IMG/VR virus record: IMGVR_UViG_3300050821_012639
Location: 1-20,378 of that record
Length of the DNA: 20,378 nucleotides
Source of the DNA: a virus
Strand: one strand, 5' to 3'
Shown: positions 3,953-18,410 of the stretch, piece after piece
Numbering within the stretch: position 1 is the first letter of the stretch
Layout: every line of letters starts with the position of its first letter
Notes under the pieces: model-generated
What the model was told of the DNA's origin: nothing
What the model saw: only the letters and a program-made list of their open reading frames with translations
Databases searched by the model: none
Translations under genes and position numbers: made by a program

Positions 3953-3995
3953 GCCTCGCGCTTTGTCGAATCGACGCCCGGTGGGAGGGGCGCGC

Positions 3996-4568: not shown

Positions 4569-6531
4569 GCTGCTGGTCGCCAATGTCGAGCGCCTCGCGC
4601 TTCAGCTCTTCGCCCAGGCGGCGCGGCCGGCGCCCCCGATCGATCTCAACGCCTGGGCGGTTGAGCACATGGAATTCGGTCCCGACTCACCGTTTCCTGG
4701 CCCCTACGACCCCGACCGCCTGCCGTTCTTCCGACGGGTGCTCGAGGTGCTGGGGCCCGACCATCCCTCGCGCCAGGTTGTTCTCCTCAAGTCCGCCCAG
4801 CTGGGCGGAACGCTCTTGGCTCAAATATTCGTCGCGGCCTCTATGGACCTCGACCCTGGCGGCATCCTTCACGTCCATCCGAGCGAGCCGAACGCGACCG
4901 GCTACGCCCGCACGAAGTGGCGCCCGATGCTTAGGTCCTGTCGCCGGCTTGGGCAGATATTCGAACTGCGACAGAGCAAAGAGGGCGGCAACTCGACGCT
5001 TCACCAGGAGCGGCGCGATGGCCTTGGCTGGCTCCGGATCAGCGGGGCGAACAGCGCGGCATCGCTGTCGATGTATTCGGTGAAGCGCTTGGTCAAAGAC
5101 GACCTCAGCAAATGGGAGGACAACGAAGCCGGCGACCCTGAGGCGCAGGCGGAGAGCCGGACGAAGGCATTCAGGGATGCCAAGATCCTCGCGATCGGGA
5201 CCGGCCTGCTCAAGGGCAGGTGCCGAACCACGGCCGCGTTCATGGCTGGCACCCAGGAGCACTGGCACGTTCCCTGTCCGCACTGCGGCCATCGTCACCC
5301 GCTCGAGCCCGAGAATTTCATCGCGAACATCGATCCGGAGCACCCCGAGCGGGCGTGCTTCACCTGCCCCGACTGCGGCGGCGTCATCGATGAAAAGCAC
5401 CGCGCCAAGATCGTCGCGGCCGGCGAATGGGTGGCGCACAAGCCAGGCGCCGCCGACGTGAGCTTTTTTGTATGGGCCGCTTACGCGCCCTTTGAGCCGT
5501 GGGAGCGGATCGCCCGCGCATATTTGGAGGCGAAGGACGATCCGAAAAGCGAGCAGGTTTGGTGGAATGACACCGCCGGGCGAGCTTACGAGCTTCCTGG
5601 CGAAGCCCCGGCCTGGCAGGAACTGAAGGACCGCGCCGAGAAGGCCCAGCGCTTGCGCGGGGTGGTGCCGATCGGCGCGCTCCTGCTCACGCTTTCCTTT
5701 GACGTTCAGGACGATTATGTCGACGGCGTCGTCGTGGGCTGGGGCCGGGATCTGAGGCGCTGGATTGTCGATCGGGTCCGCGTGGAAGGCCATATCTCGA
5801 CCCCGGAGACGCGCGCTGAGCTCAATGAGCTCGTGGGCCGGTCGTGGCCGACCGCGGTTGGGTCTCGCCGGCGGGTCGATCTCACCGGGATTGATGCCAA
5901 CGCGTGGACCGATGACGTCTTCGATTGGGCCAAGACTTTCCCCAAATCGCGGGTCGTCATGGTCCGCGGCGTTGCCGGCGATGCGGCTCCCTCGCTCGCC
6001 ATCGTCCGCAAAGAACGCCGGCGCGACGGAAAGCTCGTCAAATACGCCGGCCGTTTCTTCAACGTCGGCGTCAATGGCCTGAAGGGTGGTCTCTACAAGT
6101 TCCTGCGGGTCACCGACCCCGATCAGCGTGGTTATGTCGATTTCCCGGCCGGTCTCGAGGACGATTTTTACGAGCAGCTGACCGCCGAGAAGCGCACCGC
6201 GGTCATCGACCGCAAGGGGTTCACGATCTACCAGTGGATCAAACCCCGCTCACTCCGGAACGAAATGCTCGACTGCGCCGTCTACGCCGAGGCGCTCGCG
6301 GGAAAAATTGGGTGGCGCACCTTCACCCCGGCGCAGTGGGCCTCGATCGAAGCCGAACGCGAGGTCGCTGCGGCACCGGTCTCAGCCCAGTCCGATCTCT
6401 TTGCGGCGCCCGTGACTCCATCGCCAGCGAGCACCGAGCCGCCAGCGCCGGCCGAGCGCGCGCCACCGTCTCCCGAGAAAGCTGCTCCTGTGCCCAGGTG
6501 GATCAGCCGATTTGCCGGTCGGCAACTGTAG
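4561..6531 (+). CDS. Terminase large subunit, lambda gpA family
   Basis: A 656-residue packaging motor and nuclease. The N-terminal ATPase shows a Walker-A-like segment KSAQLGGT at residues 77-84, and DDLSKWEDNEAGDPE fits the region following the B motif. A zinc-ribbon-like insert has CPHCG near residue 239 and CPDCG near 270, as in gpA-type proteins. The C-terminal nuclease domain begins with LTLSFDVQDDYVDGVVVGWG, where D381 is the likely first metal ligand, and continues with DLTGIDANAWTDDVFDW. The last 50 residues are a Pro/Ala-rich tail ending in a basic helix, which in lambda contacts the portal. Length and motifs are complete. No portal gene follows, which is abnormal for this family. 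Confidence 0.93.
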   Translation: MSELLVANVERLALQLFAQAARPAPPIDLNAWAVEHMEFGPDSPFPGPYDPDRLPFFRRVLEVLGPDHPSRQVVLLKSAQLGGTLLAQIFVAASMDLDPGGILHVHPSEPNATGYARTKWRPMLRSCRRLGQIFELRQSKEGGNSTLHQERRDGLGWLRISGANSAASLSMYSVKRLVKDDLSKWEDNEAGDPEAQAESRTKAFRDAKILAIGTGLLKGRCRTTAAFMAGTQEHWHVPCPHCGHRHPLEPENFIANIDPEHPERACFTCPDCGGVIDEKHRAKIVAAGEWVAHKPGAADVSFFVWAAYAPFEPWERIARAYLEAKDDPKSEQVWWNDTAGRAYELPGEAPAWQELKDRAEKAQRLRGVVPIGALLLTLSFDVQDDYVDGVVVGWGRDLRRWIVDRVRVEGHISTPETRAELNELVGRSWPTAVGSRRRVDLTGIDANAWTDDVFDWAKTFPKSRVVMVRGVAGDAAPSLAIVRKERRRDGKLVKYAGRFFNVGVNGLKGGLYKFLRVTDPDQRGYVDFPAGLEDDFYEQLTAEKRTAVIDRKGFTIYQWIKPRSLRNEMLDCAVYAEALAGKIGWRTFTPAQWASIEAEREVAAAPVSAQSDLFAAPVTPSPASTEPPAPAERAPPSPEKAAPVPRWISRFAGRQL

Positions 6532-6540
6532 GCGCGCGCT

Positions 6541-6981
6541 GTGTGTAGCCCGGACGATCTTCGCGCCATCGCGACCGCCCTGGAGAACGGTCGCGTCGAG
6601 GGCGTTTCAAACCCTGCGAAAGTCGCCGGTGAGGTTCGGCGCTATCTGAAAGAGGCGCGCGATGGTTTGAGGCTCGAGGCCGCGCTTGGACTGACACCAG
6701 GCCCTGGCAAGCGCGCCTGGTGGACCAAAGAGGCCGAGAGGTATCGCAACGACCAGATCCGTGAGTGGGCGTGCGACCTCTCTGGGCTGAGTTTGCGTAA
6801 AAAAGCACAGGTGATCGCCAAGTTAGGCCGTGATTACCAGACCCGTGGGTTTCGCCTCGATCAGCGCCGCCAGGCCGAGCCCTCATCAGCCGATCCGAGC
6901 CGCCGGCGGATGCGCGCCATCCTGGAAACGGGAGCACCTTTCCCAGGGGTGCGGGAGATCCAACGAATCCTAAAAATGTGA
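6541..6981 (+). CDS. Conserved-looking hypothetical protein in the packaging block
   Basis: A 146-residue, mostly helical, strongly charged protein. The only start available after an in-frame stop is GTG 6541, nine bases after the terminase gene, so translation is probably coupled. Visible segments are VAGEVRRYLKEARDGLRLEAALGL, split by a Gly/Pro turn (TPGPGK), and REWACDLSGLSLRKKAQVIA. The C-terminal tail reads GVREIQRILKM. Lambda-like phages have the head-tail joining protein gpW and the portal here, but this protein resembles neither. Function is unknown. Confidence 0.65.
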   Translation: MCSPDDLRAIATALENGRVEGVSNPAKVAGEVRRYLKEARDGLRLEAALGLTPGPGKRAWWTKEAERYRNDQIREWACDLSGLSLRKKAQVIAKLGRDYQTRGFRLDQRRQAEPSSADPSRRRMRAILETGAPFPGVREIQRILKM

Positions 6982-6999
6982 CATGAGCTCTGTACGCTT

Positions 7000-7023
7000 G
7001 TTTCACACCTATTCGTTTCACAC
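7000..7023. repeat. Tandem GTTTCACAC direct repeats
   Basis: GTTTCACAC occurs at 7000-7008 and again at 7015-7023, a 15-base period, in the 81-bp gap before the next gene. The same core word forms an inverted repeat at 3918-3952. A two-site activator or repressor could bind here. Nothing in the window identifies the binding protein. Confidence 0.35.
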
Positions 7024-7062
7024 GCTGCTCGCGATCCTCTGCTGAGCAACGGGAGATCGCGC

Positions 7063-7248
7063 ATGGTTCGCCTTCCCATCCTGATCGAGAAAGACCTGAA
7101 CGTCCGTATCGGCGCCGCCGCTGTTCGGCTTACGCCGAGCCAGGCGATGCAGGCCGCCGAGCAGCTCATCCGCAAGGGCACGAGGGCGATGATGGTCGAG
7201 GAAGCGCTGACCGAACCACCTAAGCGGCCGCGTCGCCAGGCTCATTGA
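7063..7248 (+). CDS. Small hypothetical protein
   Basis: A 61-residue protein starting at ATG 7063 with GGGAG eight bases upstream. The pattern is a short strand (RLPILIEKDLNVRI), a long helix (SQAMQAAEQLIRKGTRAMMVEEAL) and a basic tail (PPKRPRRQAH). No family was recognised. It ends 29 bases before the next start and shares the transcription unit of its neighbours. The first start after the GTTTCACAC repeats is that of this gene. Confidence 0.55.
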   Translation: MVRLPILIEKDLNVRIGAAAVRLTPSQAMQAAEQLIRKGTRAMMVEEALTEPPKRPRRQAH

Positions 7249-7277
7249 CCCACGCATCATTTTCTTGGAGCAACCTC

Positions 7278-7595
7278 ATGAGAAACCTTTCTCGGCCGGC
7301 CTCCTCTTCGCGACTTGCCACGCGCGGAGTTGATCAGCGCCGAGCGAGCCCCCCGCCGGCAAACGGCGGCCGGCGGGGGCGTTTCGACCATCTGGGGAAC
7401 TTGGTCGACTACGGCGGCGGCGGGTCGAGGCTCAACAAGCCGCAAATACAAGCCATGTGGAGTGCTGCCTTCGCGACGGTCGGTGTCACCGCCAGCGAGA
7501 ACAATCGATCCAGCAGCTCGCGGCCTGCGAAGAACGGCGCTGCTTCGGAGTGGGATCGCGCACTCGTCAGAGCAGGACTGATCAAGGTGCGCTGA
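7278..7595 (+). CDS. Hypothetical low-complexity protein
   Basis: A 105-residue protein. ATG 7278 is chosen because GGAG ends seven bases upstream; a TTG at 7245 would lengthen it by 11 residues. The N-terminal half is rich in Arg, Ser, Pro and Gly, with no predicted fold. The C-terminal part (IQAMWSAAFATVGV, then SEWDRALVRAGLIKVR) looks helical. The minus strand is also open here, but the plus frame has the ribosome site and fits between two close neighbours. Function is unknown. Confidence 0.45.
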   Translation: MRNLSRPASSSRLATRGVDQRRASPPPANGGRRGRFDHLGNLVDYGGGGSRLNKPQIQAMWSAAFATVGVTASENNRSSSSRPAKNGAASEWDRALVRAGLIKVR

Positions 7596-7601
7596 GCCAT
7601 C

Positions 7602-7895
7602 ATGTCCTTGACCTTCGAGATCGATGACCTACCCGTCGAGATCGTCGATCGGCGCGCCAAGCTCGCCCTAGTTCTCGGGAAGCATCGGGACCTGCGGGAG
7701 CAATTCGCCGAGGCCGCTCTCGAAATGGACGAGGCGACGCTCGCAGACGTTCGCGCTCGGCTTGCCGATGCTGATGAAAAGATCGAGGCAGCGTACGTGG
7801 GCCTGCGCGATGCGACGCAACGCTTCGGCGCGAACGTGTGCGCGGCCATTCGGTCGCTGCTCGAAGAACCAGAACCAGCCCAACAGGGGATTTGA
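7602..7895 (+). CDS. Hypothetical helical protein
   Basis: A 97-residue, acidic, mainly alpha-helical protein starting at ATG 7602, six bases after the previous stop. It opens with a short strand-like part (SLTFEIDDLPVEIV) followed by long helices around RDLREQFAEAALEMDEATLADVRARL and a C-terminal helix with QRFGANVCAAIRSLLEE. Its size and helical content are in the range of head-tail adaptor or tail assembly chaperone proteins, but no motif supports either. It ends two bases before the next ATG, so the two are probably co-translated. Confidence 0.6.
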   Translation: MSLTFEIDDLPVEIVDRRAKLALVLGKHRDLREQFAEAALEMDEATLADVRARLADADEKIEAAYVGLRDATQRFGANVCAAIRSLLEEPEPAQQGI

Positions 7896-7897
7896 CC

Positions 7898-8866
7898 ATG
7901 CTGATCATCATCACCGCGTTACCGAAAGAGGTCGAGGGACCACATGCCGAACTGGAGGCGGCGCTTGCCCGCCGCCGCGATCTGCAGCGTCGGGGAGTCG
8001 AGTCCGCAGCGGCGGAGCCGCCCGCGGCCAGTGCCCTAGAGGCGGCTCGGGCCGCTCTCGAGGATGCCGAGCTGGATTTCGCCCTCGCGACCGATGAGGA
8101 TGAGAAGGCGCTGCGCCAGGTGCGCGATCGCCGTCGTCGCGAATTCCAGGAGGCCGAGGAATTCCTACAGCGTGTTCAGCAGCTGCGGCGTGGCATCGCG
8201 CAGCGCGCCGAACGCACCGATACCGAGATTTTGACCGATAAGGGTCCTTTCGACGCCGCCTGCGCGCCCTTCTGCAACGAGGTCCTGGCCGAATACCGCG
8301 AATTGCTTCGTCGCGCCGTGTTTGGCGGCGACGGGGCGATACCTCTCGCGCGGGCGTTGCGGCTTGGCTACGCGCTCCTTGATGCACTGCCGATGACGGG
8401 CACGCTCCGCTCCGTGCTCGACGAGGTCAATATTTCCGATATCGGTCCTGCACCCGGGCGCCCATTTCCGCACTTCATCAAGGGCGCCGCGGCTTGGCCC
8501 GATGACGATGATCGCGCCGGCGTTTCGCTTCGGCGCTGGCAGGACGACGCGGAGATTGTCGCGCTGCACGCTCTCCTAAAGCCGTTTGGCGCTACCTACA
8601 CGATGGCGACCGCGCAGGTTCGCCAGATAGAGGCGAAGCGGGCGAGGGAAGCGCAGGCCGCGCCGGCGTCGGCGAAAGCGTCGCACCTACCGCGGCCGAA
8701 GACGGTGTCCGCAGAGGAGTTCATGGCCTCGCAGCCGACCGCTGAGGAACACCGCGCGATCATGCAAAAGGAAAACCTGGAGCGCATCGAGAAGAACAGG
8801 GTTTACCCGCCGCTGGGCGAAACGACGTTCCACGGCAACCCGCGCTTCGCCGGTCAGAGGATCTAG
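7898..8866 (+). CDS. Hypothetical coiled-coil protein
   Basis: A 322-residue protein starting at ATG 7898, with AGGGG eight bases upstream. Residues 15-120 are an almost continuous charged helix with heptad-like spacing and an Ala-rich, acidic middle (ARAALEDAELDFALATDEDE). Residues 120-250 look globular, with FDAACAPFCNEVLAEYREL and PFPHFIKGAAAWPDDDDRAG. The C-terminal 70 residues are charged and low in complexity, ending YPPLGETTFHGNPRFAGQRI. It sits where a phage of this type would have portal, protease or scaffold genes. The long helix could suit a scaffold, but nothing proves that. Confidence 0.65.
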   Translation: MLIIITALPKEVEGPHAELEAALARRRDLQRRGVESAAAEPPAASALEAARAALEDAELDFALATDEDEKALRQVRDRRRREFQEAEEFLQRVQQLRRGIAQRAERTDTEILTDKGPFDAACAPFCNEVLAEYRELLRRAVFGGDGAIPLARALRLGYALLDALPMTGTLRSVLDEVNISDIGPAPGRPFPHFIKGAAAWPDDDDRAGVSLRRWQDDAEIVALHALLKPFGATYTMATAQVRQIEAKRAREAQAAPASAKASHLPRPKTVSAEEFMASQPTAEEHRAIMQKENLERIEKNRVYPPLGETTFHGNPRFAGQRI

Positions 8867-8874
8867 GTCCTCAA

Positions 8875-9282
8875 ATGGCCGCCGTCGTCGCTCTCCACAG
8901 CCAAGAGGTCCTCCGCGCCCGACATCGCGCGGAGTGGACCAAGCATTTGTTCCTAACCCTGCGCTCGGCGCTCGGGGCTTGGCACGACGATGGGAATAAC
9001 GGCTGGACCGAGCTCGAGAAGCACCTCAGCGAGCAGCCGCTTCACCTTCGGAGCGCGACCCTGGGCGTGTGGCGGCGCTTGACCGAGGTCATCGAGGACC
9101 TCGGCGCCGCTGGGGGTGATGTCGCTATTACCGTCGCTATTACCGACGCTATTGCCGGTCGCCGCCGCGCTGTCAGCAGGGCATGCCTCTTCGATGAGCT
9201 GGGGCGATTCGCGAACGAGCTCCTCGGCGTAATCCACGACGCAGAGGATGCACCCGACAGCGACAGAAAACCTACCGAGTAG
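8875..9282 (+). CDS. Hypothetical protein with internal 12-bp repeat
   Basis: A 135-residue helical protein starting at ATG 8875, nine bases after the previous gene. Helices lie around LRARHRAEWTKHLFLTLRSAL, LRSATLGVWRRLTEVIEDL and ACLFDELGRFANELLGVIHD. Between them, residues 83-94 are encoded by three tandem 12-base units, giving VAIT-VAIT-DAIA. It ends 11 bases before the baseplate hub gene. No family was recognised. Its place before the gpP-like gene might suggest a tail role, but this is only context. Confidence 0.6.
   Translation: MAAVVALHSQEVLRARHRAEWTKHLFLTLRSALGAWHDDGNNGWTELEKHLSEQPLHLRSATLGVWRRLTEVIEDLGAAGGDVAITVAITDAIAGRRRAVSRACLFDELGRFANELLGVIHDAEDAPDSDRKPTE
9121..9156 (+). repeat. 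Tandem 12-bp repeat, three units
   Basis: GTCGCTATTACC occurs twice without change (9121-9144), followed by GACGCTATTGCC (9145-9156). The unit is a multiple of three, so unit number can change without breaking the reading frame of the host gene. It probably arose by slippage. Confidence 0.7.
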
Positions 9283-9293
9283 CCGAGGGGGAT

Positions 9294-10424
9294 ATGCAGA
9301 GTACCGCGAGCGATGTCATCACGGTCAAGTCGAACGGCCAGGCGATTGGCGGCTGGACCGGCGCCAGGGTCACGCGTGGGATCGAGCGGTTGCCCTCGGG
9401 CGTGGCCCTCGAATTCACCGAGCTCTACCCGGGCCAAGCCTCTCCTGCCGTCATCGACCCCGGTAACACGGTCCAGGTCTATCTCGGGCCCGATCTGATC
9501 CTCACCGGCTACGCGAACCTCTATTGGCCGCACGAAGACCAAGGCACGCACATCGTCCGCGCCGAGGCGAGGTCAAAGACGCAGGACCTCGTCGATTGTT
9601 CGCTCGCTCCACCGGCGGCACTGCCGCCCTGGTATTTTCACGCTGCTTCGTTCAAGGCGATCGCCGAGCAGCTCTGCAACCCGTTCAAGATCCAGGTCGT
9701 TATGCCGGACGGGGATGTGTCGCTGATCACGGCGCCGAATGGCGCGTCGATCCCGCCCTTCTCTGTCAATCCAGGAGAGACGCCGGCCGAGCTTCTCGAG
9801 TACATGGCTCGGACCGTCCAGCTCCTGATGTATGATGACCCGCAAGGGCGTCTCGTGCTTGCGAAGGTCGGCACGACGCGAGCGGGTTCATCTCTGGTCG
9901 AGGGTGTGAACTGCGAGGTCGCGGAAGCAAGGTTGTCCGACGATCAGCGCTACTCTCAGATTTATGTCGTCGGCCAAGCGCCGGTGAAGGGTTCGGTCCC
10001 GCCGGTCCTCAATATCGAGGCGTCAGCGCAGGACACTGGCGTAAAGCGCTACCGGCCCAAATTGATCGTGATGGATATGCCGGGACCTGATCTGCGGTTC
10101 GCTCAGCAGCGCGCGAATTGGGAAGTCAGCCGCCGGATCGGTCGATCGATGATCGTCGACGTGACGGTGACCGGTTGGCGCGACGGCAACGGCGCGCTTT
10201 GGACGCCCAATACGATTACGAACTGTTCGCTGCCGAGCATGAAGGTCGAGCGCGACATGCTCATCGCCGAGGTTGCGTGGCTGATGAGCGATGCCGGACA
10301 AACCGCCCTCTTGACGCTGATGCCGCCTGAGGGCTTCCAGCCGCAGCCTTTCTATTTCAACCTATTGCCGGGCTACCAAGACCCGTCACCGACCGAAACG
10401 CGGCCAGAAAATTTGGGGACGTAA
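9294..10424 (+). CDS. Phage baseplate hub protein, Mu gpP (gp44) family
   Basis: A 376-residue protein of the contractile-tail baseplate hub, which joins tail tube to spike. The N-terminal beta-rich domain starts VKSNGQAIGGWTGARVTRGI and continues with FTELYPG, the typical opening of Mu gpP-like proteins, followed by VYLGPDLILTGYANLY. A middle domain holds AIAEQLCNPFKIQV and ETPAELLEYMARTVQLLMYD. The C-terminal part has GNGALWTPNTITNCSLPSM, usual for the last gpP domain. Length matches the family. ATG 9294 has AGGGGG upstream, and the stop directly precedes the ATG of the spike gene. The sheath, tube, tape-measure and other baseplate genes normally found beside it are absent. Confidence 0.85.
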   Translation: MQSTASDVITVKSNGQAIGGWTGARVTRGIERLPSGVALEFTELYPGQASPAVIDPGNTVQVYLGPDLILTGYANLYWPHEDQGTHIVRAEARSKTQDLVDCSLAPPAALPPWYFHAASFKAIAEQLCNPFKIQVVMPDGDVSLITAPNGASIPPFSVNPGETPAELLEYMARTVQLLMYDDPQGRLVLAKVGTTRAGSSLVEGVNCEVAEARLSDDQRYSQIYVVGQAPVKGSVPPVLNIEASAQDTGVKRYRPKLIVMDMPGPDLRFAQQRANWEVSRRIGRSMIVDVTVTGWRDGNGALWTPNTITNCSLPSMKVERDMLIAEVAWLMSDAGQTALLTLMPPEGFQPQPFYFNLLPGYQDPSPTETRPENLGT

Positions 10425-10994
10425 ATGAACCCGCGACTTTGGGATACCTATGACCAGGCTGATCGGTTGCACTTCCGCCAGCGGAACATGCTGGGACATG
10501 GCACTGTCACCCTCGTCGATGACACAGGGCCAGTCCAAGACCTGCAGTACGAGGGATATCCGACCGAGCTCCGCTACGCTGGCAACTACCACCCGCTAGG
10601 CCTCGTCTCAGTGCCCCTACAGGGCGCGACGCTGTTTACTCTCCACCAGGGCGGGCAGCGGGCCTTTAACTCCGTCGTCGGCGTCATGGACGCTCGCTAT
10701 CGGCCGACTAGTCATCAGCCGGGCGAGTTCTCGCTCTACATGGTCGACGGGGCCGGCAATGACGGCGCCGGCGGGACCATGTGGCAGATCCTGCAAGGGC
10801 TGATGGGGGCTGTCTGCAAGCTCTTCGGCAAGACGATGGTGATTGGCGACGGCACCAACACCACGATGATCGACGTCTATGGCAAGACCTCGGTGACCAT
10901 CCACAGCCCGAGCATCAACCTGACGAATGGCGGGGTCCCGAGCCCGGTCGTCACGTTGGCTGGGCCGTCGACCGTGGTTCGCGCGGATGCCTAG
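10425..10994 (+). CDS. Phage baseplate spike protein, Mu gp45 / gpV family
   Basis: A 189-residue membrane-piercing spike of a contractile tail. The N-terminal part (YEGYPTELRYAGNYHPLGL, then GGQRAFNSVVGVMDARYRP) is the OB-fold-like domain of Mu gp45. The C-terminal 60 residues become a regular beta-helix (GKTMVIGDGTNTTMIDVYG, SVTIHSPSINL, PSPVVTLAGPSTVV) that would form the trimeric needle. It starts at the base after the hub gene stop, and both proteins belong to one complex. The next baseplate genes of Mu (gp46, gp47, gp48) do not follow; the block ends here. Confidence 0.85.
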   Translation: MNPRLWDTYDQADRLHFRQRNMLGHGTVTLVDDTGPVQDLQYEGYPTELRYAGNYHPLGLVSVPLQGATLFTLHQGGQRAFNSVVGVMDARYRPTSHQPGEFSLYMVDGAGNDGAGGTMWQILQGLMGAVCKLFGKTMVIGDGTNTTMIDVYGKTSVTIHSPSINLTNGGVPSPVVTLAGPSTVVRADA

Positions 10995-11247
10995 TCGATT
11001 GCGATGAACGTCTTCATCTGCGACGGGTGCGTCGTGCTCGATGGGAAAATGGTAGGATGCTAATTGAGTGGTAGCCCGTGGGATGTCACCGATGAGGGCG
11101 GGGCGCTATGCGACAAATCGAATCCGCGCTCGATCGCCGGTTTGCCCGTCGGAGATGCCGGGTGAGGCTATCCCCCCGACGTCGATCGGAAACATTTGCG
11201 GAATGTCTGGTCGGCTGCCATCGATGCCGGATCGATCAGAGTTCATA
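10995..11247. promoter_or_regulatory. Gap between spike gene and Panacea gene, with two inverted repeats
   Basis: These 253 bases hold no convincing gene; very short frames are present but lack ribosome sites. Two perfect inverted repeats with five-base spacers stand before the Panacea gene: ACATT-TGCGG-AATGT (11192-11206) and ATCGAT-GCCGG-ATCGAT (11220-11236). The second ends 11 bases before the start codon, where a repressor would block transcription or translation. Autoregulation by the downstream pair is a reasonable inference. Confidence 0.4.
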
Positions 11248-11763
11248 ATGATGGCGTTGCGTGCTCCGTACGATGGGCGAGCCGTGGCCAATCTCCTACT
11301 GGATGTCGCAGAGGAGCACGGGGAATTTCTAACTCAGCTTTCGCTCTACAAGATCTTGTATTTTGCTCAGGGCTGGTACCTAGTAGAAAAGGGACAACCA
11401 TTAGTAAAACAAGATTTCGAGGCGTGGAAATACGGTCCAGTGATCAAGGCTGTTAGAGATGAATTTCACTCATTTGGCGATCGACCCATTAGAACACGGG
11501 CCCTAAAGCTAGATATTTATTCAGGAAATAAAATCGAGATCAAACCTGAATTCCCTGATGAAGACAGGCGCTTCGTTAGCAATATCTACCTCGTGTATCA
11601 CGTACACGATGCCTGGAAATTATCCGAGATGACGCATGAAAGGGGGTCACCCTGGGATCGCCTGTGGAACACAGCGCTGCCAATTGGGCGCCTGGCTCTC
11701 AGACTGCGTAACGACGATATCAAAGCGCACTTTGATGGCCTCCCCAAACGACTTCGGGTATGA
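11248..11763 (+). CDS. Panacea-domain (DUF4065, SocA/PanA-like) antitoxin
   Basis: A 171-residue protein with the Panacea domain, found in antitoxins that neutralise many unrelated toxins and in phage-associated proteins. Diagnostic segments are YDGRAVANLLLDVAEEHG, then LSLYKILYFAQGWYLVEKG (about residues 30-48) and FEAWKYGPVIKAVRDEFHS. These match the K-hhYFAqgw and AW.yGPV patterns of the family. The domain fills most of the protein, ending with ERGSPWDRLWN. ATG 11248 or the adjacent ATG 11251 fits the usual family start; the frame open upstream to 11068 looks non-coding. The gene is AT-richer than its neighbours, a sign of separate acquisition. Another gene begins 30 bases downstream, the usual antitoxin-then-toxin arrangement. 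Confidence 0.85.
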   Translation: MMALRAPYDGRAVANLLLDVAEEHGEFLTQLSLYKILYFAQGWYLVEKGQPLVKQDFEAWKYGPVIKAVRDEFHSFGDRPIRTRALKLDIYSGNKIEIKPEFPDEDRRFVSNIYLVYHVHDAWKLSEMTHERGSPWDRLWNTALPIGRLALRLRNDDIKAHFDGLPKRLRV

Positions 11764-11793
11764 TCGAGTGATCGCCTCTCCCGGAGCTTCGGT

Positions 11794-12540
11794 ATGGCTG
11801 GAGTTCTTTTTCTTAACGTCCTCGATGTTGCTCGCGCTCTAGGTTTCAGCCCGCTAAGTGCGACCCCAGAGCAGGTGGCCGAGTGGCTTGCGAACGAATA
11901 CAACACTAACCGCGGCGGAGGCTTCAATTATGATCCGGCCATCCGCGCTACATTTGACTTGTTTAGGGGTGCCATAACCGCGGAGAGAGCTATCGAATAC
12001 TGTGGAACCCTGGGGAATCCGAAAGGTCGAAAGGCGAATACGGAGGCGATTGCTGAGGTCTGCCCCTACGCAGTCGACAATATTTCGACCTGCTATCACA
12101 TCGGGTTCACCGCGGTCGCAGTAGGACGATTCGCGGACTCCACGGTCTACATCGGCATCAAAGCGCCGATGGTTCGCGTGAACCGGCGCGAAGCTTTTGT
12201 CGTGATGCCGGGTTTCCGGAAGGGTCATAGACCGACGGAAGTGCAAATCGATCTTGCTTGCTCAATCGCACTGGCAACCTTTGCTCGTGATGATTTTGCA
12301 GGAGCAGACTTCGAGTATCTGTATGCGGGTCCCGGCGCGAGCGGAAAGCGCGAGTTTCGGGCGATACTCGGCCGCGATCGAAAAATATTTGATCGCGACA
12401 GCATCGATTCGCTTCTCGACGTTTATGTGAATGGCGTCGCGCTTGCAGCGAAAGCGGGTGCCGACATCCGACCGCCTAAGATGGATGGCTATAGGATTAT
12501 TGATCCTCGTGAGCCCGGCTTCTGGGATTCTCCGGGGTGA
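11794..12540 (+). CDS. Unrecognised protein paired with Panacea; candidate toxin
   Basis: A 248-residue, probably soluble protein starting at ATG 11794, with GGAG eight bases upstream and 30 bases after the Panacea gene. A helical N-terminal third (VLDVARALGFSPLSATPEQV) precedes a central beta-rich part with YAVDNISTCYHIGFTAVAVG and VYIGIKAPMVRVN. After KREFRAILGRDRKIFDRDSI, the C-terminal part ends GYRIIDPREPGFWDSP. No Fic, RelA-like, RelE-like, PIN or other toxin motif known to me is visible. Panacea antitoxins are known to pair with many toxin folds, so position makes this a candidate toxin, perhaps of a new type. It could also be an unrelated cargo gene. Confidence 0.65.
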   Translation: MAGVLFLNVLDVARALGFSPLSATPEQVAEWLANEYNTNRGGGFNYDPAIRATFDLFRGAITAERAIEYCGTLGNPKGRKANTEAIAEVCPYAVDNISTCYHIGFTAVAVGRFADSTVYIGIKAPMVRVNRREAFVVMPGFRKGHRPTEVQIDLACSIALATFARDDFAGADFEYLYAGPGASGKREFRAILGRDRKIFDRDSIDSLLDVYVNGVALAAKAGADIRPPKMDGYRIIDPREPGFWDSPG

Positions 12541-12566
12541 TCAGGGAGTTCGACTAACTGGAGCAC

Positions 12567-12764
12567 TCACCTCGCCAATCGAGACAACAGTCGACGGATA
12601 GCCGGCGATAAGGGCTTTCCGGTTGCCACCAGGCGACGCTTCACCGGGCGGACCGGCAAAACTACGATTTCATCGCCTGTCGGCCGGCGTTGTTGCTCGC
12701 GTCGCAACTCCTCCATACGAGCGCGGATCGCGGCAAAATCGTCGGCAGCGCGCGGCTGTAGCAT
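12567..12764 (-). CDS. Small basic hypothetical protein
   Basis: A 65-residue protein on the minus strand, ATG 12764, with GAGGGG about seven bases upstream. It has a charged helix (DFAAIRARMEELRREQQRRP), a short strand (EIVVLPVRPVKRRLV) and a basic C-terminal helix (SPAIRRLLSRLAR). No family was recognised. It is the last of three closely spaced minus-strand genes and converges with the Panacea partner gene 26 bases away. Confidence 0.5.
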   Translation of the reverse strand: MLQPRAADDFAAIRARMEELRREQQRRPTGDEIVVLPVRPVKRRLVATGKPLSPAIRRLLSRLAR

Positions 12765-12815
12765 GTTTCCATCCCCTCATCTCTTTGTCCTTAGGGGAGC
12801 ACTCTAGCGCGCGCA

Positions 12816-13058
12816 TCAGTCGGGTTCATCAGGGATGTGTTCAGCGGGTGCGGAGGCGATTTCTTCGGCCTGAATTTCCCGCATCCGATCACCAATCGAG
12901 GCCAGATCCTTGAAGACACTCGTCGGTGTTGAGCGGGGCCGCGCCTCGACCCAGCGCGGAACGCAGGTCAACAGCGCGGTGAGAAACTCGCTGCTGTGGC
13001 CGCCGCACCAGCGGCAGATGCCGTCGATAAAATCATGTTCGCGGACCATCTCTTCCAC
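12816..13058 (-). CDS. Small hypothetical protein with CxxC motif
   Basis: An 80-residue protein read from GTG 13058; ATG 13049 is an alternative start. The N-terminal EHDFIDGICRWCGGHSSEF has a CRWC pair that may bind a metal together with nearby His residues. The C-terminal half is acidic and helical (FKDLASIGDRMREIQAEEIA). No family was recognised. The start lies six bases after the stop of a small membrane-peptide gene, so the two are probably coupled. Confidence 0.5.
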   Translation of the reverse strand: MEEMVREHDFIDGICRWCGGHSSEFLTALLTCVPRWVEARPRSTPTSVFKDLASIGDRMREIQAEEIASAPAEHIPDEPD

Positions 13059-13064
13059 CGGCCG

Positions 13065-13172
13065 TCACCGACCGATGAAAGCGTTAAACCAGAGGACCGC
13101 TGCTACGTATCCAACCCCCGCTACAAAGGCGACGCTTCCCAATCCAATCAATGTACCGGCAAACCATTTCAT
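13065..13172 (-). CDS. Single-span membrane peptide (35 residues)
   Basis: A minus-strand frame from ATG 13172 to TGA 13065 encoding 35 residues. After MKWFAG comes one hydrophobic helix (TLIGLGSVAFVAGVGYVAAV) and a short tail ending FNAFIGR. This is a clean transmembrane span with codon use like its neighbours. The ribosome site is weak. The following gene begins six bases after its stop. Upstream (13180-13260) the DNA is AT-rich and could hold the promoter of the three-gene unit. Confidence 0.45.
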   Translation of the reverse strand: MKWFAGTLIGLGSVAFVAGVGYVAAVLWFNAFIGR

Positions 13173-13378
13173 CCGAGATCGCCACAAATTTAATGGCCGT
13201 GGGTCAGCATTCGGCACAACCAATAAAATACACAAAGAATTTTATGCTTAATTCTTCGAGCTGTTGGCGCGCTTCCTGAGCAAGAGGTGGCGATCATCCA
13301 GTCGGAGCCAAATCCGTAGCTCGCGAGAAAATTAGCCCGGTATTTGATTTGGATTAACCATAAATTGTCTTGCACCTC

Positions 13379-13402
13379 CTCGACTAACTCCTCGTAGTCG
13401 AG
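13379..13402 (+). promoter_or_regulatory. Hairpin overlapping the ribosome site of the next gene
   Basis: CTCGACTA (13379-13386) pairs perfectly with TAGTCGAG (13395-13402) around an eight-base loop. The 3' arm contains most of the GAGG that could serve ATG 13407, so folding of the mRNA would limit translation. It has no U-run and is not a terminator. The remaining 13173-13378 region holds no gene I can support. Confidence 0.35.
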
Positions 13403-13406
13403 GCCG

Positions 13407-13604
13407 ATGAATGAGCTGACCGCCTTTAAGCACTACTTTGATGCCGTGGAGGCCGCGGAAACGCCAACGTGGCGCTCGGTCTTCATGCTGGGTTTGATGT
13501 GTGCTGCTGCAGTCAGTCATGGGAGTCTGGTGGCGTTTGTCGACGACACCGGTTACGGCACTGATTGGCCCGACCCTCGAACGACGGATGCACCTTCCCG
13601 ATGA
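13407..13604 (+). CDS. Small hypothetical membrane protein
   Basis: A 65-residue protein from ATG 13407. One hydrophobic segment (SVFMLGLMCAAAVSHGSLVA, about residues 24-43) is followed by a short acidic, Pro-containing tail (DDTGYGTDWPDPRTTD). The stop TGA overlaps the ATG of the next small gene as ATGA, which supports both as a coupled pair. A hairpin covers its ribosome site. The minus strand is also open here, so the call is moderate. Confidence 0.42.
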   Translation: MNELTAFKHYFDAVEAAETPTWRSVFMLGLMCAAAVSHGSLVAFVDDTGYGTDWPDPRTTDAPSR

Positions 13605-13753
13605 CCACTTTCGCCCCCGTCGGCAAGGTTGGCACCGGCATGCCCTACAGCGTGATCAGCACCAAGCGGCGCAAGGGTAATAAGCATGGCTCCGCGCTCG
13701 TCGGCCTCATCGTGCTCCTGGCCGTTTGCGCCTTGGTTTGGAAGCTGCTTTAG
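13601..13753 (+). CDS. Single-span membrane peptide (50 residues)
   Basis: A 50-residue protein with a polar N-terminus, a basic patch (STKRRKGNKHG) and a C-terminal transmembrane helix (ALVGLIVLLAVCALVWKLL). ATG 13601 overlaps the previous stop by four bases, so translation is probably by re-initiation. The basic stretch before a C-terminal anchor predicts the N-terminus in the cytoplasm. No family was recognised. The 265 bases after it, to 14018, hold no gene I can support on either strand. Confidence 0.45.
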   Translation: MTTFAPVGKVGTGMPYSVISTKRRKGNKHGSALVGLIVLLAVCALVWKLL

Positions 13754-14018
13754 CCTGGCGTCTTCCGGGTTGTTCCCGCTCTGCTATCGATTGGTGGAAC
13801 CGCCGACGGACGCGCGCCTCGAGAGCGAGACGTGCTCGCCTTTGGCGAAATCGGGCCCATCGTACGCGCAGATCATAGAACCAGACGCGCGCGAGCAACG
13901 GCCCCTACTTGTGGATTTGGACGAGTCGATAGCGCTCCATTTGGCGTAGAGCATAGGTCACGAGGGAGGAGCTGCGCGAGCGGCTTGCGACCGCCCGGCG
14001 ACCGCAGCGCCCATTTGT

Positions 14019-14174
14019 TTACAGCTCGTTGTTAAGGAGCGTTTGCCTCAAGGCACGCTCGTAGGTAGATGGGTTCCATACACCTCTGATCCCGACCGAC
14101 ACGAGAAACAGGGTCACGGCCACCATGGCGACGATCCACGCCTTGCTAAGCGCGTGCAGTTGATACTCCGACAA
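14019..14174 (-). CDS. Single-span membrane peptide (51 residues, TTG start)
   Basis: On the minus strand, TTG 14174 is preceded six bases upstream by AGGAG, a near-ideal ribosome site, and opens a 51-residue frame to TAA 14019. The protein has a polar start (SEYQLHALSK), a clear membrane helix (AWIVAMVAVTLFLVSVGI) and a charged tail (WNPSTYERALRQTLLNNEL). There is no ATG in the frame upstream. It diverges from the plus-strand gene at 14400. Function is unknown. Confidence 0.5.
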   Translation of the reverse strand: MSEYQLHALSKAWIVAMVAVTLFLVSVGIRGVWNPSTYERALRQTLLNNEL

Positions 14175-14399
14175 TTCCAGCTCCTCAACGTAGGCCCGCG
14201 AGGTTCTTGCATCCCGCGTGCCGCCGGCGCATGCTGCGCGTAGCCCTTCACAAGGCTATGCACAGAGCCATCATGCTCAACTCGTGTCCGGCGGCCGTTG
14301 TCGTATGTCCAGGGGGAAACCCTAAAGGGCAACGGGGACGACTCTGTGCGTCTTGTGAACCGCCGGGCTCTTGGCGTCCCGTCACAAGGAGCACAGAGC

Positions 14400-15125
14400 A
14401 TGACGACCGACAAAGACCATTCTGAAAAGCCATCCAGCCGTAAGCCGCAAATCCTGATTACCGAGGAGCAGTTTGTCGCGACGGAGAGAGCCATCGTCGA
14501 TCTACTCGCCAAGCGAATGGCTCTAGACGATCTGGAGCGTGAGGCGGTGGAGCACAGCGAAGCGCTGAGGATTCAAAAAACTCAGATCGATCCGCTCACC
14601 GACGAAATCTTTGATCTTTACGCGGACATCTGTGCGTCGCCGCCGCTGGACCGGCGTACCGCCCTGATCAAGCTGCGCCTCGCCGTCATCCCATCTCTGG
14701 GATTCGATGCATCGGACGAGGGATACGGAAGCTTGCTCCAGGTTTCCGCCTTTCTCGACGGCGGGAAGCACGCGTACGTGCCGCTGCCCAGCGGCCTGAG
14801 CCGACTTCAAAAAATGATCGTGGTAGAGGAACAAATTCGATCGCTGGCCGTCAGAATCAGCGACGCGGCCGACAACTTCAGTTTCTGGCTCGAGAAGCAA
14901 GAGCAGGACGTTCGGGAGCTCGCCGGCGGCGTCGACCTTGAGGAGATTTACCGCCTCTACCACAAGATCGATGACGGCGTACCCGACACCCTGCGTAATC
15001 AGATCACCAACACGCCCCCGGCCAGCCTTGCCGAGGCGATCGCACTGCTCGAGCTGGCCGCCCCATCCCTAGACGCGGTGATCGCCGGGCTCCGCGCCAT
15101 CGCGGAGAAAGGGGGTGTGGCATGA
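14400..15125 (+). CDS. Hypothetical helical protein
   Basis: A 241-residue, largely helical and acidic protein. ATG 14400 has AAGGAG eight bases upstream and is preferred to the open frame from 14298. Segments include LITEEQFVATERAIVDLLAK, a charged helix to residue 60 and SRLQKMIVVEEQIRSLAVRI. An Ala/Leu-rich C-terminal helix begins SLAEAIALLELAAPSLDAVI. No catalytic motif or membrane span is visible and no family was recognised. The stop overlaps the start of the next gene by four bases, so the two form a translationally coupled pair. Confidence 0.7.
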   Translation: MTTDKDHSEKPSSRKPQILITEEQFVATERAIVDLLAKRMALDDLEREAVEHSEALRIQKTQIDPLTDEIFDLYADICASPPLDRRTALIKLRLAVIPSLGFDASDEGYGSLLQVSAFLDGGKHAYVPLPSGLSRLQKMIVVEEQIRSLAVRISDAADNFSFWLEKQEQDVRELAGGVDLEEIYRLYHKIDDGVPDTLRNQITNTPPASLAEAIALLELAAPSLDAVIAGLRAIAEKGGVA

Positions 15126-15600
15126 GCGCGCGCAACAAACAGCACCCGATCACAAGCCTGCCGTTCGTGTTCGACCATGCGCCGACATCCCGACGCAACT
15201 CGAAACGGAGCTTTTGGCACGTTACGCCGTCGGGCGACTACGGTGAGGACTGTAGGACCGGCTCTCGCTACGCCGTCGAGTACCTGCGCGTTGTGGCGGA
15301 GGAGGATAAGGCGGTTTATCGCAGCGGGGGGTGGCTCGCGCTGATCGTCGGTGCCATGCGCAAGGCTCTCGCCGACGGTGAGCGGTCTGGTATCGAGGGG
15401 GATTTCTCCAAACCATCGGGTTCGCCGCGAAATTCGGATGGAGGCAGGCCGAGCAGCTGCACCTGGACACCGAATTTTATTGGCGAATGGAGGGCAAAGG
15501 GTCGCTCGTCAACCAGCGGCCCGATGGCTCCGTGGTGATCGAGCAGCCGGACGGCACGCGCGCTGTCTATCGCAAGGTAGAGCCCGCCACGGGGAACTGA
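15122..15600 (+). pseudogene. Hypothetical gene broken by a one-base frameshift
   Basis: ATG 15122 overlaps the previous stop as ATGA. The first frame runs to 15538 (138 residues). After the five-G run at 15397-15401 its sequence becomes low in complexity. The frame one base back stays open and protein-like from the same point to TGA 15598: GFLQTIGFAAKFGWRQAEQL, then EFYWRMEGKGSLVNQRPDGS. Adding one G restores a 159-residue protein. The N-terminal part has FWHVTPSGDYGEDCRTGSRY and YRSGGWLALIVGAMRKAL. No family was recognised. The break may be a real mutation, a sequencing error in the G run, or programmed slippage. A terminator follows 54 bases downstream. Confidence 0.65.
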
Positions 15601-15653
15601 TCAGGGTCAGCCAGCGTTATCACAGCTGCACCTAGTAGCTTCCTCTCGCACCT

Positions 15654-15683
15654 CCCGGCGTCGCCCTGCGGCGCCGGGTTTTT
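15654..15683 (+). terminator. Rho-independent terminator
   Basis: A perfect seven-base GC stem, CCCGGCG (15654-15660) with CGCCGGG (15672-15678), is followed at once by TTTTT and then CTTT. It lies 54 bases after the restored stop of the two-gene unit at 14400-15600 and would end that transcript. Confidence 0.8.
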
Positions 15684-15750
15684 CTTTGCTGGCTTCTCGG
15701 CAGTGCGTAACAAAAAATCCCGTGGCGCGCGAACACGGACGAGAATAAGC

Positions 15751-15854
15751 TTAACAACGGCGCGAGACGACCCCAAACCTCGGCCGCGCTGCTTCCCGGA
15801 AGCGAGCCCGGCCGCCCCCCGCGTGCCGGGCTCTTCCGTTTCTACGGCCCGTAC
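15751..15854 (+). repeat. Double-hairpin repeat, copy 1
   Basis: This begins TTAACAACGGCGCGAGACGA. It then forms hairpin GCTTC-CCG-GAAGC (15791-15803) and directly after it a nine-base stem GAGCCCGGC (15804-15812) / GCCGGGCTC (15825-15833). It ends CGTTTCTACGGCCCGTAC. Related copies lie near 17280 and 17444. Stems are kept while loops differ, which suggests a structured RNA or a mobile repeat. No U-run follows the second stem. Confidence 0.55.
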
Positions 15855-15968
15855 CGTAAGCGCCGACCCTGCCACGGGTGATCGGTCGGCACGATGGATG
15901 CAAGCGCGTGATGACGCGCGAGGCAACGTTATGCTGCCATCGCCAAGCGGATGATGGGGAGGCGGAGC

Positions 15969-16055
15969 ATGCTGACTTATGCGGACTATCTGGCAGCGGC
16001 GCTTACGGTCGGTTGCCTCTGCGCCGTGCTGTATGGCGTTTTGTTCATCCTCTAG
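15969..16055 (+). CDS. Single-span membrane peptide (28 residues)
   Basis: ATG 15969 to TAG 16055 encodes 28 residues: a short polar start (MLTYADYLAA) and one hydrophobic helix (ALTVGCLCAVLYGVLFIL) to the end. GGAGG and CGGAG lie just upstream, a strong ribosome site. ATG 15951 in the same frame would add six residues. It is followed 29 bases later by an even smaller membrane peptide. Short hydrophobic peptides occur as type I toxins, as holin-like proteins and as subunits of membrane complexes; nothing here decides between these. Confidence 0.5.
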   Translation: MLTYADYLAAALTVGCLCAVLYGVLFIL

Positions 16056-16084
16056 GCGCGGACAAGTTGCCGGGCAAGGGCGAG

Positions 16085-16153
16085 ATGGTCGTGATGACGG
16101 TCTTGCTGGCCGTCTTGGTCATCAGCCTCTGTGCGCTATTCCTCCTCCTGTAG
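16085..16153 (+). CDS. Single-span membrane peptide (22 residues)
   Basis: ATG 16085 to TAG 16153 encodes 22 residues that are almost wholly hydrophobic (MTVLLAVLVISLCALFLLL after MVV). AAGG lies five bases upstream. The frame is open further upstream but is not protein-like there. Its distance to the preceding peptide gene suggests a shared message. A frame this short can occur by chance, but the fully membrane-like composition and the similar neighbours argue for a gene. Confidence 0.4.
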   Translation: MVVMTVLLAVLVISLCALFLLL

Positions 16154-16230
16154 CCGAGCGGGCGCAGCGGAAGCGCTAGCGTAGGGAAGCGGGTCGAGGG
16201 CAGGGTCAGAGGAGACAGCGCCTCCAGGAG

Positions 16231-16341
16231 CTAGCGCGGCTGCTCCAGCTTGCGGACCCGCTGCTCGAGGACTTCGATCTGCGTAGCTAATAGAGCGCCG
16301 TAAGCGCCGACGAAGATGGCCCGGCTACGGAAGAAACAGTC
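16231..16341 (-). pseudogene. Probable 3' part of the 79-residue membrane protein gene, out of frame
   Basis: A minus-strand frame without a start codon reads FFRSRAIFVGAYGALLATQI, then EVLEQRVRKLEQPR, to TAG at 16233-16231. It lies in the frame next to the preceding membrane protein gene, whose frame stops at 16325. Removing one T from the TTT run (16334-16336) joins the two into a 110-residue protein with a further membrane segment and a charged C-terminal helix. Confidence 0.4.
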
Positions 16342-16564
16342 GAACGCTCATGCACGCGGCGGAGAGCCCCGAAAACCCAGCGGCCCATTTGTTCATAACG
16401 GCCGAAAATCGGATCGCTCTTAGGTACGGGTCGCCTTCCGGCACATCTCCATCCCAATAGAGGCGTTGACGCGGTAAGCGTCTCAGGGCGGAGAGAAACC
16501 AGAACACCGCCGCGACAAGGGCGAACACCGCCGCGCTGATTTCCAAGAACCTAGCGCGCGGCAC
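16325..16564 (-). CDS. Small membrane protein, probably truncated by a frameshift
   Basis: A 79-residue protein from GTG 16564. One membrane helix near the start (FLEISAAVFALVAAVFWFL) is followed by a basic turn (RRLPRQRLYWDGDVPEGDPY) and a second hydrophobic part (MNKWAAGFSGLSAACMSV). GTG 16564 begins two bases after the upstream gene's stop, which supports the start by coupling, although no good ribosome site is present. The C-terminus VRLFLP is probably the product of an extra T at 16334-16336; see the downstream open frame to 16231. No family was recognised. Confidence 0.55.
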   Translation of the reverse strand: MPRARFLEISAAVFALVAAVFWFLSALRRLPRQRLYWDGDVPEGDPYLRAIRFSAVMNKWAAGFSGLSAACMSVRLFLP

Positions 16565-16566
16565 GG

Positions 16567-16710
16567 CTAACCCGCGAGAACTCGGACGAGATGGCTGATC
16601 GCCTCCAGCTGTGCTTCGCTTTTGATCTCGCCAAGATTGCGCATGAGGTTGAAGAGCATTTGCGGCGTCTGCCCCACCTCATTCGCCGACCAGCATGTCG
16701 AAGACCACAC
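16567..16710 (-). CDS. Small helical hypothetical protein
   Basis: A minus-strand frame from GTG 16710 (47 residues), with GGGAGG seven bases upstream. GTG 16677 is an alternative that gives 36 residues and follows directly on the stop of the overlapping 21-codon frame. The core is a helical segment, QTPQMLFNLMRNLGEIKSEA, then QLEAISHLVRVLAG. A one-base change near 16681 would instead join it to the upstream short frame as one 58-residue protein. It ends two bases before the next start. Function is unknown. Confidence 0.45.
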   Translation of the reverse strand: MWSSTCWSANEVGQTPQMLFNLMRNLGEIKSEAQLEAISHLVRVLAG

Positions 16711-16744
16711 GTCGACGCCTCCCGGGTTTGGGCGTTTTGTCCAT
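16679..16744 (-). CDS. Short basic frame, possibly the N-terminus of the next protein
   Basis: ATG 16744 to TGA 16679 encodes 21 residues: a basic start (DKTPKPGRRRR) and a hydrophobic end (VVFDMLVGE). It begins three bases after the stop of a membrane-peptide gene and overlaps the following gene. It may be translated alone. Its style and position also fit the N-terminal part of the following protein separated by a one-base shift. Confidence 0.3.
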   Translation of the reverse strand: MDKTPKPGRRRRVVFDMLVGE

Positions 16745-16747
16745 CCG

Positions 16748-16855
16748 TCATAGAGCCAAAGCGACCGCTACCAAGGCAAGGATCAAAAGGACCAGCGGCA
16801 GGCTCCTGATCAAGCTGTCAGGACTTGGCGGTGTTCGTCGCCGGTTGCCGGCCAT
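16748..16855 (-). CDS. Single-span membrane peptide (35 residues)
   Basis: ATG 16855 to TGA 16748 on the minus strand encodes 35 residues. A basic, Pro-rich start (AGNRRRTPPSPD) is followed by one long hydrophobic helix (LPLVLLILALVAVALAL) at the C-terminus. It is the first gene of a compact minus-strand series running to 16231, with gaps of three bases or overlaps. The ribosome site is weak (GAG). The 256 bases upstream, to 17111, hold no gene I can support. Confidence 0.45.
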   Translation of the reverse strand: MAGNRRRTPPSPDSLIRSLPLVLLILALVAVALAL

Positions 16856-17111
16856 ATCTCAGCATCGCGTCATTTGCGACGCGGGGTCAACCTCATCGCC
16901 TGGTGTCGCCCAGCGGCGCGCCGGGCTTTTGTTCGGCAGCGGTAGCGGTGCGCGCGACGCCGAGGCGCGGCTAGGTCTGGCCGCTGAAAAACCGGGCCTC
17001 ACCGCGGCGCGGGACGCGTTCGGCATCGATCTTGCTGGATCGAGCCGGTCGATTAGCGCCCACGACAGTCACTCACTACTAAAGCGCGGAGCGCATTGGG
17101 GAGAGTTCCCG

Positions 17112-17222
17112 ATGGGCATGAAGCTTTACTGGATCACGTTAGGCGCCACGCTGCTGGTCTTGGCGGTACTCCTCCTCAACAACGTTGTGAGGCGGGGTCG
17201 GGATCGACACGGCCAGCACTGA
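17112..17222 (+). CDS. Single-span membrane peptide (36 residues)
   Basis: ATG 17112 to TGA 17222 encodes 36 residues, with GGGGAG eight bases upstream. After MGMKLYW comes a membrane helix (ITLGATLLVLAVLLLNNVV) and a basic tail (RRGRDRHGQH), a typical C-in topology by the positive-inside rule. The frame is open from 16695, but the upstream part is not protein-like. It is followed by two double-hairpin repeats. It shares size and design with the other micro-membrane proteins here but not sequence. Confidence 0.5.
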   Translation: MGMKLYWITLGATLLVLAVLLLNNVVRRGRDRHGQH

Positions 17223-17279
17223 TGGCTGGCGCCAGAGGGCTCTTTTCCCCGTGACGCGCCCACCGCAACGGGAATACGG

Positions 17280-17390
17280 TTAATACCGGCGCGAAAGGTG
17301 ATCTCCCTTGGTCTTCCATCGCACTCTTCCCCCGACGAGGGAAGAGAGCCCGGCACCTCGCCACGAGTGCCGGGCTCTGTCCCTTCGGGC
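17280..17390 (+). repeat. Double-hairpin repeat, copy 2
   Basis: This begins TTAATACCGGCGCGA, like copy 1. Hairpin one is CTCTTCCC (17324-17331) / GGGAAGAG (17339-17346). Hairpin two is a perfect 11-base stem, GAGCCCGGCAC (17346-17356) / GTGCCGGGCTC (17367-17377). The stem sequences differ from copy 1 in a compensated way while the layout is kept. Confidence 0.55.
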
Positions 17391-17443
17391 TAAACCAAAA
17401 TTAAGCATCAAATTCTTTGCGTAATTTACGGGTGTGCTGAGAT

Positions 17444-17560: not shown

Positions 17561-17573
17561 GCTCCGCTGCTCT

Positions 17574-17936: not shown

Positions 17937-17958
17937 TTCCCCCGGGGGCCCATTGTTG

Positions 17959-18258: not shown

Positions 18259-18410
18259 GCATTGATCCTGGAAATGAAGCCGCGGTCAGCGTCTACTCGG
18301 CATCCTACAAGCAGGACTGGTGCCAAGGGAGGGATGCACGATCGGTGAATTATCGCTCGGCTTCGGTGATCATCAGGCGGGAGCGGACAGCCACTTGGTG
18401 GAGGACGGCG

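Follow-up and report, generated by a model that had tools for sequence, protein, structure and literature searches.

A probable divergent SocAB-type toxin-antitoxin pair in a virus record, with a toxin predicted to carry a PD-(D/E)XK fold

SocAB of Caulobacter crescentus is the founding type VI toxin-antitoxin (TA) system, whose toxin SocB jams DNA copying, and it is, to our knowledge, among the few TA systems that target the replication clamp. A motif of the form Qxx(L/M)F is the clamp motif. A review describes SocB as occupying the clamp cleft via the usual clamp motif (PMC9690074). The PanAT study places SocB in toxin cluster T10 and states that PanA acts usually by direct binding and that other Panacea antitoxins neutralise their toxins without ClpXP or Lon (PMC8832971). 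RipA of Streptococcus pneumoniae is likewise a TA toxin with suppressor mutations in the hydrophobic pocket of the clamp; it differs from SocB in that, according to its authors, the two share no homology in sequence or structure (PMC12795458).

The DNA analysed here, called the window, is the whole 20,378-base IMG/VR virus record IMGVR_UViG_3300050821_012639 (positions 1-20,378; locus L001). It holds a Panacea antitoxin gene adjoining a probable toxin gene, as in PanAT systems (PMC8832971). The arrangement is that of SocAB (type VI; NCBIfam models NF047745 and NF047746): a SocA-type Panacea antitoxin comes first and a toxin of similar length follows, which is homologous to the SocB model and its relatives via intermediates and profile comparison and belongs to a group in which many members bear a hydrophobic tail. 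It differs from SocAB of C. crescentus in that both window proteins score below the NCBIfam cut-offs and the toxin has lost the acid of (D/E)xR that six SocB relatives keep. The pair is probably a divergent SocAB-type module, in which a non-catalytic PD-(D/E)XK toxin would place its tail on the DnaN clamp and SocA would neutralise it. The features concerned are as follows.

11230-11244, plus strand: one-mismatch GTTCN7GTTC-like (LexA-box-like) site, 3 bases 5' of the SocA start (pattern; P 0.068)
11248-11763, plus strand: SocA-type Panacea antitoxin gene, 171 aa (PF13274, NF047745, identity to SocA neighbours of partner homologues)
11764-11793, plus strand: intergenic gap of 30 bases, with GGAG at 11783-11786, 7 bases ahead of the next ATG (sequence)
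11794-12540, plus strand: SocB-like toxin gene, 248 aa, predicted PD-(D/E)XK fold (homologues, SocB relationship, predicted fold)
12037-12039, plus strand: Asn82, invariant in 14/14 aligned toxins (alignment)
12166-12168, plus strand: Pro125, at the position assigned to the strand-2 Asp of PD-(D/E)XK (alignment; placement inferred from strand order)
12211-12219, plus strand: Gly140-Phe141-Arg142, at the place of (D/E)xK (alignment; placement inferred)
12517-12537, plus strand: C-terminal tail of low model confidence (residues 242-248), in which Phe243-Trp244 takes the LF/MF place of relatives; candidate clamp-binding motif (pLDDT, alignment)

An earlier note on this DNA had read the first gene as a Panacea-domain protein and the second as a separate gene starting 30 bases after the first stop with its own ribosome site; the matches of the first gene and the spacing listed above bear out both statements. 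The product of 11248-11763, whose mechanical frame opens earlier at GTG 11068, matches Pfam PF13274 (Panacea) at E 3e-20 and is specifically SocA-like, with a match to NF047745 at E 9e-40. Its 136.2 bits fall short of the 190-bit equivalog cut-off. The SocAs of L002, L012, L020 and L029 score 141-162 bits with the same model, the SocA beside a closer SocB relative (L018) reaches 263 bits, and two Panacea antitoxins followed by genes that are not SocB-like (L026, L027) score 83.5 and 97 bits. The window antitoxin is 53-61% identical to the SocA genes adjoining close homologues of the partner. A sequence search of SocA against the PDB gave a best match of only 0.09.

The partner gene is real, as judged from 55-60% identical proteins in Methylopila, Sphingobium and a third genome. 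A genome contig search returned homologues in Methylopila turkensis (L002, 60% identical to the window protein) and Sphingobium ummariense (L003, 55%), and when 385 genomes of the class were searched with a profile of the three, a fourth window-type toxin emerged (L012, 57% identical to the window). A profile of four recovered a distant relative (L020, E 3.9e-5) from 297 genomes of the order to which the Methylopila genome belongs; from 296 of the Sphingobium genome's order it brought back just the starting genome. Neither tblastn (E up to 1) nor peptide patterns matched the partner in phages, plasmids or IMG/VR, and the SocA search alone led to L029, its closest relative among viruses. The best PDB sequence match of profile A3 (0.0072) was to an unrelated secreted protein. 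Left out of all counts were L005 (E 0.417, one stop) and the weak partial matches L013 (3.8e-4, one stop), L014 (0.0015), L015 (0.0054) and L016 (0.0057); by eye, L013, L014 and L015 fall within other genes. Duplicates were merged (L004, L011 and L019 with L002; L021 with L003; L022 with L008), and L010 and L017 are a single broken copy in G385.

The earlier note found no toxin motif in the partner and took it for an unrecognised protein, possibly a new kind of toxin. The first statement holds for Pfam, PADLOC and PHROGs, where no known toxin motif was found, and gives way at NCBIfam, where the protein has a weak but collinear match to SocB (NF047746, E 0.18, 10.8 bits, residues 80-207 on 78-203). 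The second does not stand, for the curated model, profile-profile comparison and intermediates together identify the partner as distantly related to SocB, with which SocA is known to pair. NF047746 matches the Methylopila homologue, 60% identical to the window protein, at 1e-6 and the viral intermediate L029 at 7.5e-8; it gave no match to L003 or L012. Across 385 genomes it matched in six (L006, L007, L008, L009, the broken L010 and Methylopila), one of them above the cut-off. Further SocB relatives are L018, from IMG/VR, and L023, which a combined toxin profile picked out of 299 genomes of the phylum. When viral contigs were scanned with a SocA alignment, 17 loci were obtained, to which five were added from 110 phage and 20 plasmid records matching SocA; a SocB-like gene lies downstream of SocA in three of these 22 loci (L024, L025, L029). 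L029 was chosen as a bridge because the window-type profile (1.4e-11) and the SocB profile (1.3e-5) match it alike.

Profile-profile comparison of the four window-type rows with eight SocB relatives scored 57.3% (P 1e-4, 193 columns), rising to 97.1% (P 5.9e-11) with L029 added and 97.8% (P 9.1e-13) with both L029 and L020; the best of 100 column-shuffled controls for each reached 1.1%, 0.8% and 0.8%, respectively. Thinner alignments gave 6.7% and 36.8%, and 27.6% and 74.1% (best controls 3.9% and 5.1%). Compared directly, the four close window-type toxins are 10-18% identical to six SocB relatives. Plain profile searches fail to part the two clades from decoys: the four-row window-type profile, with or without L020, put no SocB relative above decoys (L018 E 8.3); a six-row SocB profile gave L002 an E of 0.69, on a par with the best decoy (0.85), and did not list the window protein; and an eight-row SocB profile found L029 (1e-5) and L002 (1.2e-4), with the window protein at 0.17, behind a decoy at 0.13. 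The homology therefore rests on the curated SocB model, the profile-profile comparison and the intermediates. By these sequence comparisons the product of 11794-12540 is a very divergent SocB relative, and the homology is well supported by computation. As the protein misses the NF047746 equivalog cut-off (10.8 against 210 bits), which three SocA-linked SocB relatives also miss (132-169 bits), it is assigned to a SocB-like branch and not to the SocB equivalog itself.

Genomic linkage agrees with this pairing. A survey of the neighbours of partner homologues had been proposed in the earlier note, which would have given up the pair if they never sat beside Panacea genes; a SocA gene lies directly upstream in all ten full-length loci that came from toxin searches (L002, L003, L012, L020, L006-L009, L018 and L023). 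L024, L025 and L029 are not independent here, since they were found through SocA. Pairwise identities of SocA and toxin correlate across 11 pairs (r 0.93), a correlation that shared ancestry alone could yield. The earlier reading thus stands in that a probable toxin is linked to a Panacea antitoxin, with foreign composition and in a virus record; it is not supported as to an unrecognised kind of partner.

AlphaFold, given four sequences, produced one usable model of the window toxin (pLDDT 79.5, pTM 0.79); the other four models scored 68.9, 54.4, 45.1 and 36.4. In Foldseek, six PDB matches to the usable model reached E 0.001: ACE1, an Argonaute-associated Cas4-family protein, with four chains (best 8.8e-6), and one each for Cas4 SSO0001 and Dna2. 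VIA-align ranked Dna2 highest (Z 9.9, rmsd 5.0, 204 residues), followed by AdnA (9.4), MGME1 (8.8), ACE1 (8.6) and Cas4 SSO0001 (8.2), all of them PD-(D/E)XK enzymes. Against viral models there were 60 matches at 0.001, with PD-(D/E)XK in the name of 17 of 50 among the matches listed. The model made for a SocB relative (L018 plus four others; pLDDT 81.9, pTM 0.82) resembles the window toxin model in the order of its elements and finds the same PD-(D/E)XK structures more weakly: none of its PDB matches in Foldseek reached 0.001 (ACE1 came closest, 6.9e-3, probability 0.98), and VIA-align gave Dna2 (Z 8.2, rmsd 7.3, 194 residues), AdnA (8.1) and MGME1 (7.7). Because a Z near 8 alone is not strong, the fold call rests on the agreement of the top rows. 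The window toxin seems to be built on a Cas4/Dna2-like PD-(D/E)XK fold, an assignment well supported by computation. It shares this predicted fold with Cas4-family and RecB-type exonucleases (ACE1, SSO0001 Cas4, Dna2, MGME1, AdnA) and differs from them in its SocA linkage, in lacking the canonical catalytic residues, and in a window that holds no helicase, Cas or Argonaute partner.

The active site was followed through an alignment of 14 toxins, with the catalytic places assigned from strand order and alignment, not superposition. A nuclease of this fold would be expected to carry a strand-2 Asp and a strand-3 (D/E)xK; with the placement so inferred, the window toxin has Pro125, Gly140 and Arg142 instead. 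Asp occupies the strand-2 place in four of the 14 toxins (L007, L009, L024, L029). All 14 carry Arg, and none Lys, where (D/E)xK has its Lys. Two residues before this Arg stands Asp or Glu in six (L006, L007, L008, L009, L018, L023) and otherwise Gly in the four window-type toxins, Gln in L029 and L020, Phe in L024 and His in L025. The full catalytic set occurs in 0/14, the nearest being L007 and L009 with both acids and the Arg. From the alignment and the model, the window toxin is probably no longer able to cut DNA.

The C-terminal tail is a candidate for the clamp contact. Residues 242-248 of the window toxin have pLDDT below 50. In the last six residues of 15 toxins (the 14 aligned and the L010 fragment), [LMF]F occurs in nine tails against 0.40 expected and a hydrophobic pair in 12 against 2.86 expected, with 0/5000 shuffles as high in either case; these counts ignore kinship, and the four window-type sequences among them form one clade. 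The end of L029, QGTMFP, fits Qxx(L/M)F, and the tails of L012, L002 and L020 read ExxLF. The window tail reads GFW and is without the Gln, and the motif is absent from L007 (FNF), L024 and L025. The three close homologues of the window toxin end in LF, LFA and FF, from which the tail is taken to be conserved in the window branch.

The gene pair, its SocB homology, its SocA linkage, the predicted fold and the missing canonical catalytic residues are computed; we infer the toxicity of the toxin, its clamp binding and its neutralisation route. The toxin would be a SocB homologue with a Cas4/RecB-exonuclease-like PD-(D/E)XK body that has probably lost cutting, and the short hydrophobic motif of its flexible C-terminal tail would most likely dock in the cleft of the DnaN sliding clamp. 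Docked in this way, it would halt DNA elongation as SocB does. SocA would neutralise it by direct binding, and possibly also by delivery to ClpXP.

Other readings of the pair weigh the same evidence differently. It is unlikely that the toxin, sharing SocB ancestry and fold, acts on another target through its own surface, with the tail used differently in this branch; the divergent GFW tail, the lack of a tail motif in L024 and L025 and the low identity to SocB relatives (10-18%) would fit such a shift, whereas the LF, LFA and FF ends of the three close homologues and an antitoxin that remains SocA-like speak against it. Still less probable is an active DNA nuclease with an altered PD-(D/E)XK site, cutting DNA when free of SocA. 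Its structural matches (ACE1/Cas4, Dna2, MGME1, AdnA) are active exonucleases, and the SocB relatives L007 and L009 retain the strand-2 Asp together with a strand-3 Asp-x-Arg; against it, Lys has become Arg in 14/14 toxins, and Pro and Gly hold the two acidic places in the window toxin and its three close homologues, as placed by strand order and alignment. That the pair is a decaying cargo remnant, functionless in the element, is very improbable: other copies do decay, L010 having a cut SocA and a broken SocB, and a truncated prophage edge may be where this pair lies, but both frames are intact, the ribosome site is good, and full-length identity of 55-60% to three homologues suggests maintained function.

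The divergent SocAB-type reading can be carried one step further, tentatively, to all SocB-type toxins. These may be exapted Cas4/RecB-like PD-(D/E)XK exonucleases that lost catalysis and gained a C-terminal clamp tail, so that a DNA-binding pseudo-nuclease parked on the clamp would block the primer end; the window pair would then be an extreme branch without even the (D/E)xR acid. This pseudo-nuclease view of SocB is the interesting part of the analysis, and the proposed origin, a dead PD-(D/E)XK nuclease plus a clamp-binding tail, makes docking testable. In the open-access literature searched, no paper was found that ties SocB to a nuclease fold or to Cas4; the idea may all the same have been published already. 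The SocAB family itself is widened well past the reach of current curated models, including into virus records (the window, L018, L029 and Rhodobacter phage RC1).

The window carries an integrase gene and a GpA-type terminase gene (Pfam), the latter with its best match, among those listed, to Sinorhizobium phi2LM21 (41.3% over 87%). Mu-like baseplate genes extend to 10994, the last being a Mu gp45-like gene at 10425-10994 (Pfam) that comes just before the pair, in keeping with the earlier placement of the pair at the edge of the structural block. To the right of the pair, none of eight ORFs tested is a phage gene by Pfam, and 18411-19820 encodes a gag-type aspartyl protease (Pfam), from which it follows that the SocA/toxin pair may sit at a truncated prophage edge. 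The protease and the low GC at about 19081-20000 suggest that 12541-20378 is host sequence past that edge; convincing genes are few in this stretch. No tRNA was found in a scan of the window. Adjoining the integrase gene, 1317-1814 (minus strand) has a TraY-like DNA-binding match (E 7.3e-4) of 20.0 bits, just below the Pfam cut-off of 21.3 bits.

The deviating base composition claimed for the antitoxin gene was confirmed: its GC is 49.2% and its GC3 51.2%, against 64.3% GC for 3204-10994 and 77.5-81.1% GC3 in three phage genes. The partner gene lies between (55.7% and 57.0%). Among 994 windows of 516 bases, 29 have GC as low as the antitoxin gene, six starting at 11221-11341 and 23 at 19081-19521; the gene is thus not the sole such stretch in the window.

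Sites resembling GTTCN7GTTC, the alphaproteobacterial LexA box consensus, occur near some SocA starts. The window site is not significant alone (P 0.068), and one-mismatch sites number 17 in the whole window against 16.3 expected. Exact sites lie at L020:898-912 and L018:4406-4420, 11 and 27 bases ahead of the SocA starts, the two among 12 loci with an exact site within 30 bases (shuffle P 0.004 and 0.002); the remaining nine gave no clear support for a LexA box before SocA. The pattern is a hint of SOS control of some SocAB modules.

Several neighbouring loci deserve mention in their own right. In L010:223-1000 a 111-aa SocA frame is followed by a broken SocB-like frame, a decaying SocAB copy. 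The pairs of L002, L003 and L012 adjoin DNA-metabolism genes as judged by eye, which may be chance: a UvrB-like gene (L002:6917-9715), a ribonucleotide reductase small-subunit-like gene (L003:4390-5442) and a class II reductase-like gene (L012 from 2478). Just upstream of SocA in L023, a 311-aa frame (2744-3679, minus strand) has by eye the look of a DarG-type macrodomain-Panacea antitoxin; if it is one, two Panacea genes stand side by side. Finally, in Rhodobacter phage RC1 (L025:2496-3218) a 240-aa SocB-like frame with a TTG start follows SocA and matches NF047746 at 2.8e-20; the record annotates just its 3' part, 2889-3218, as a hypothetical protein.
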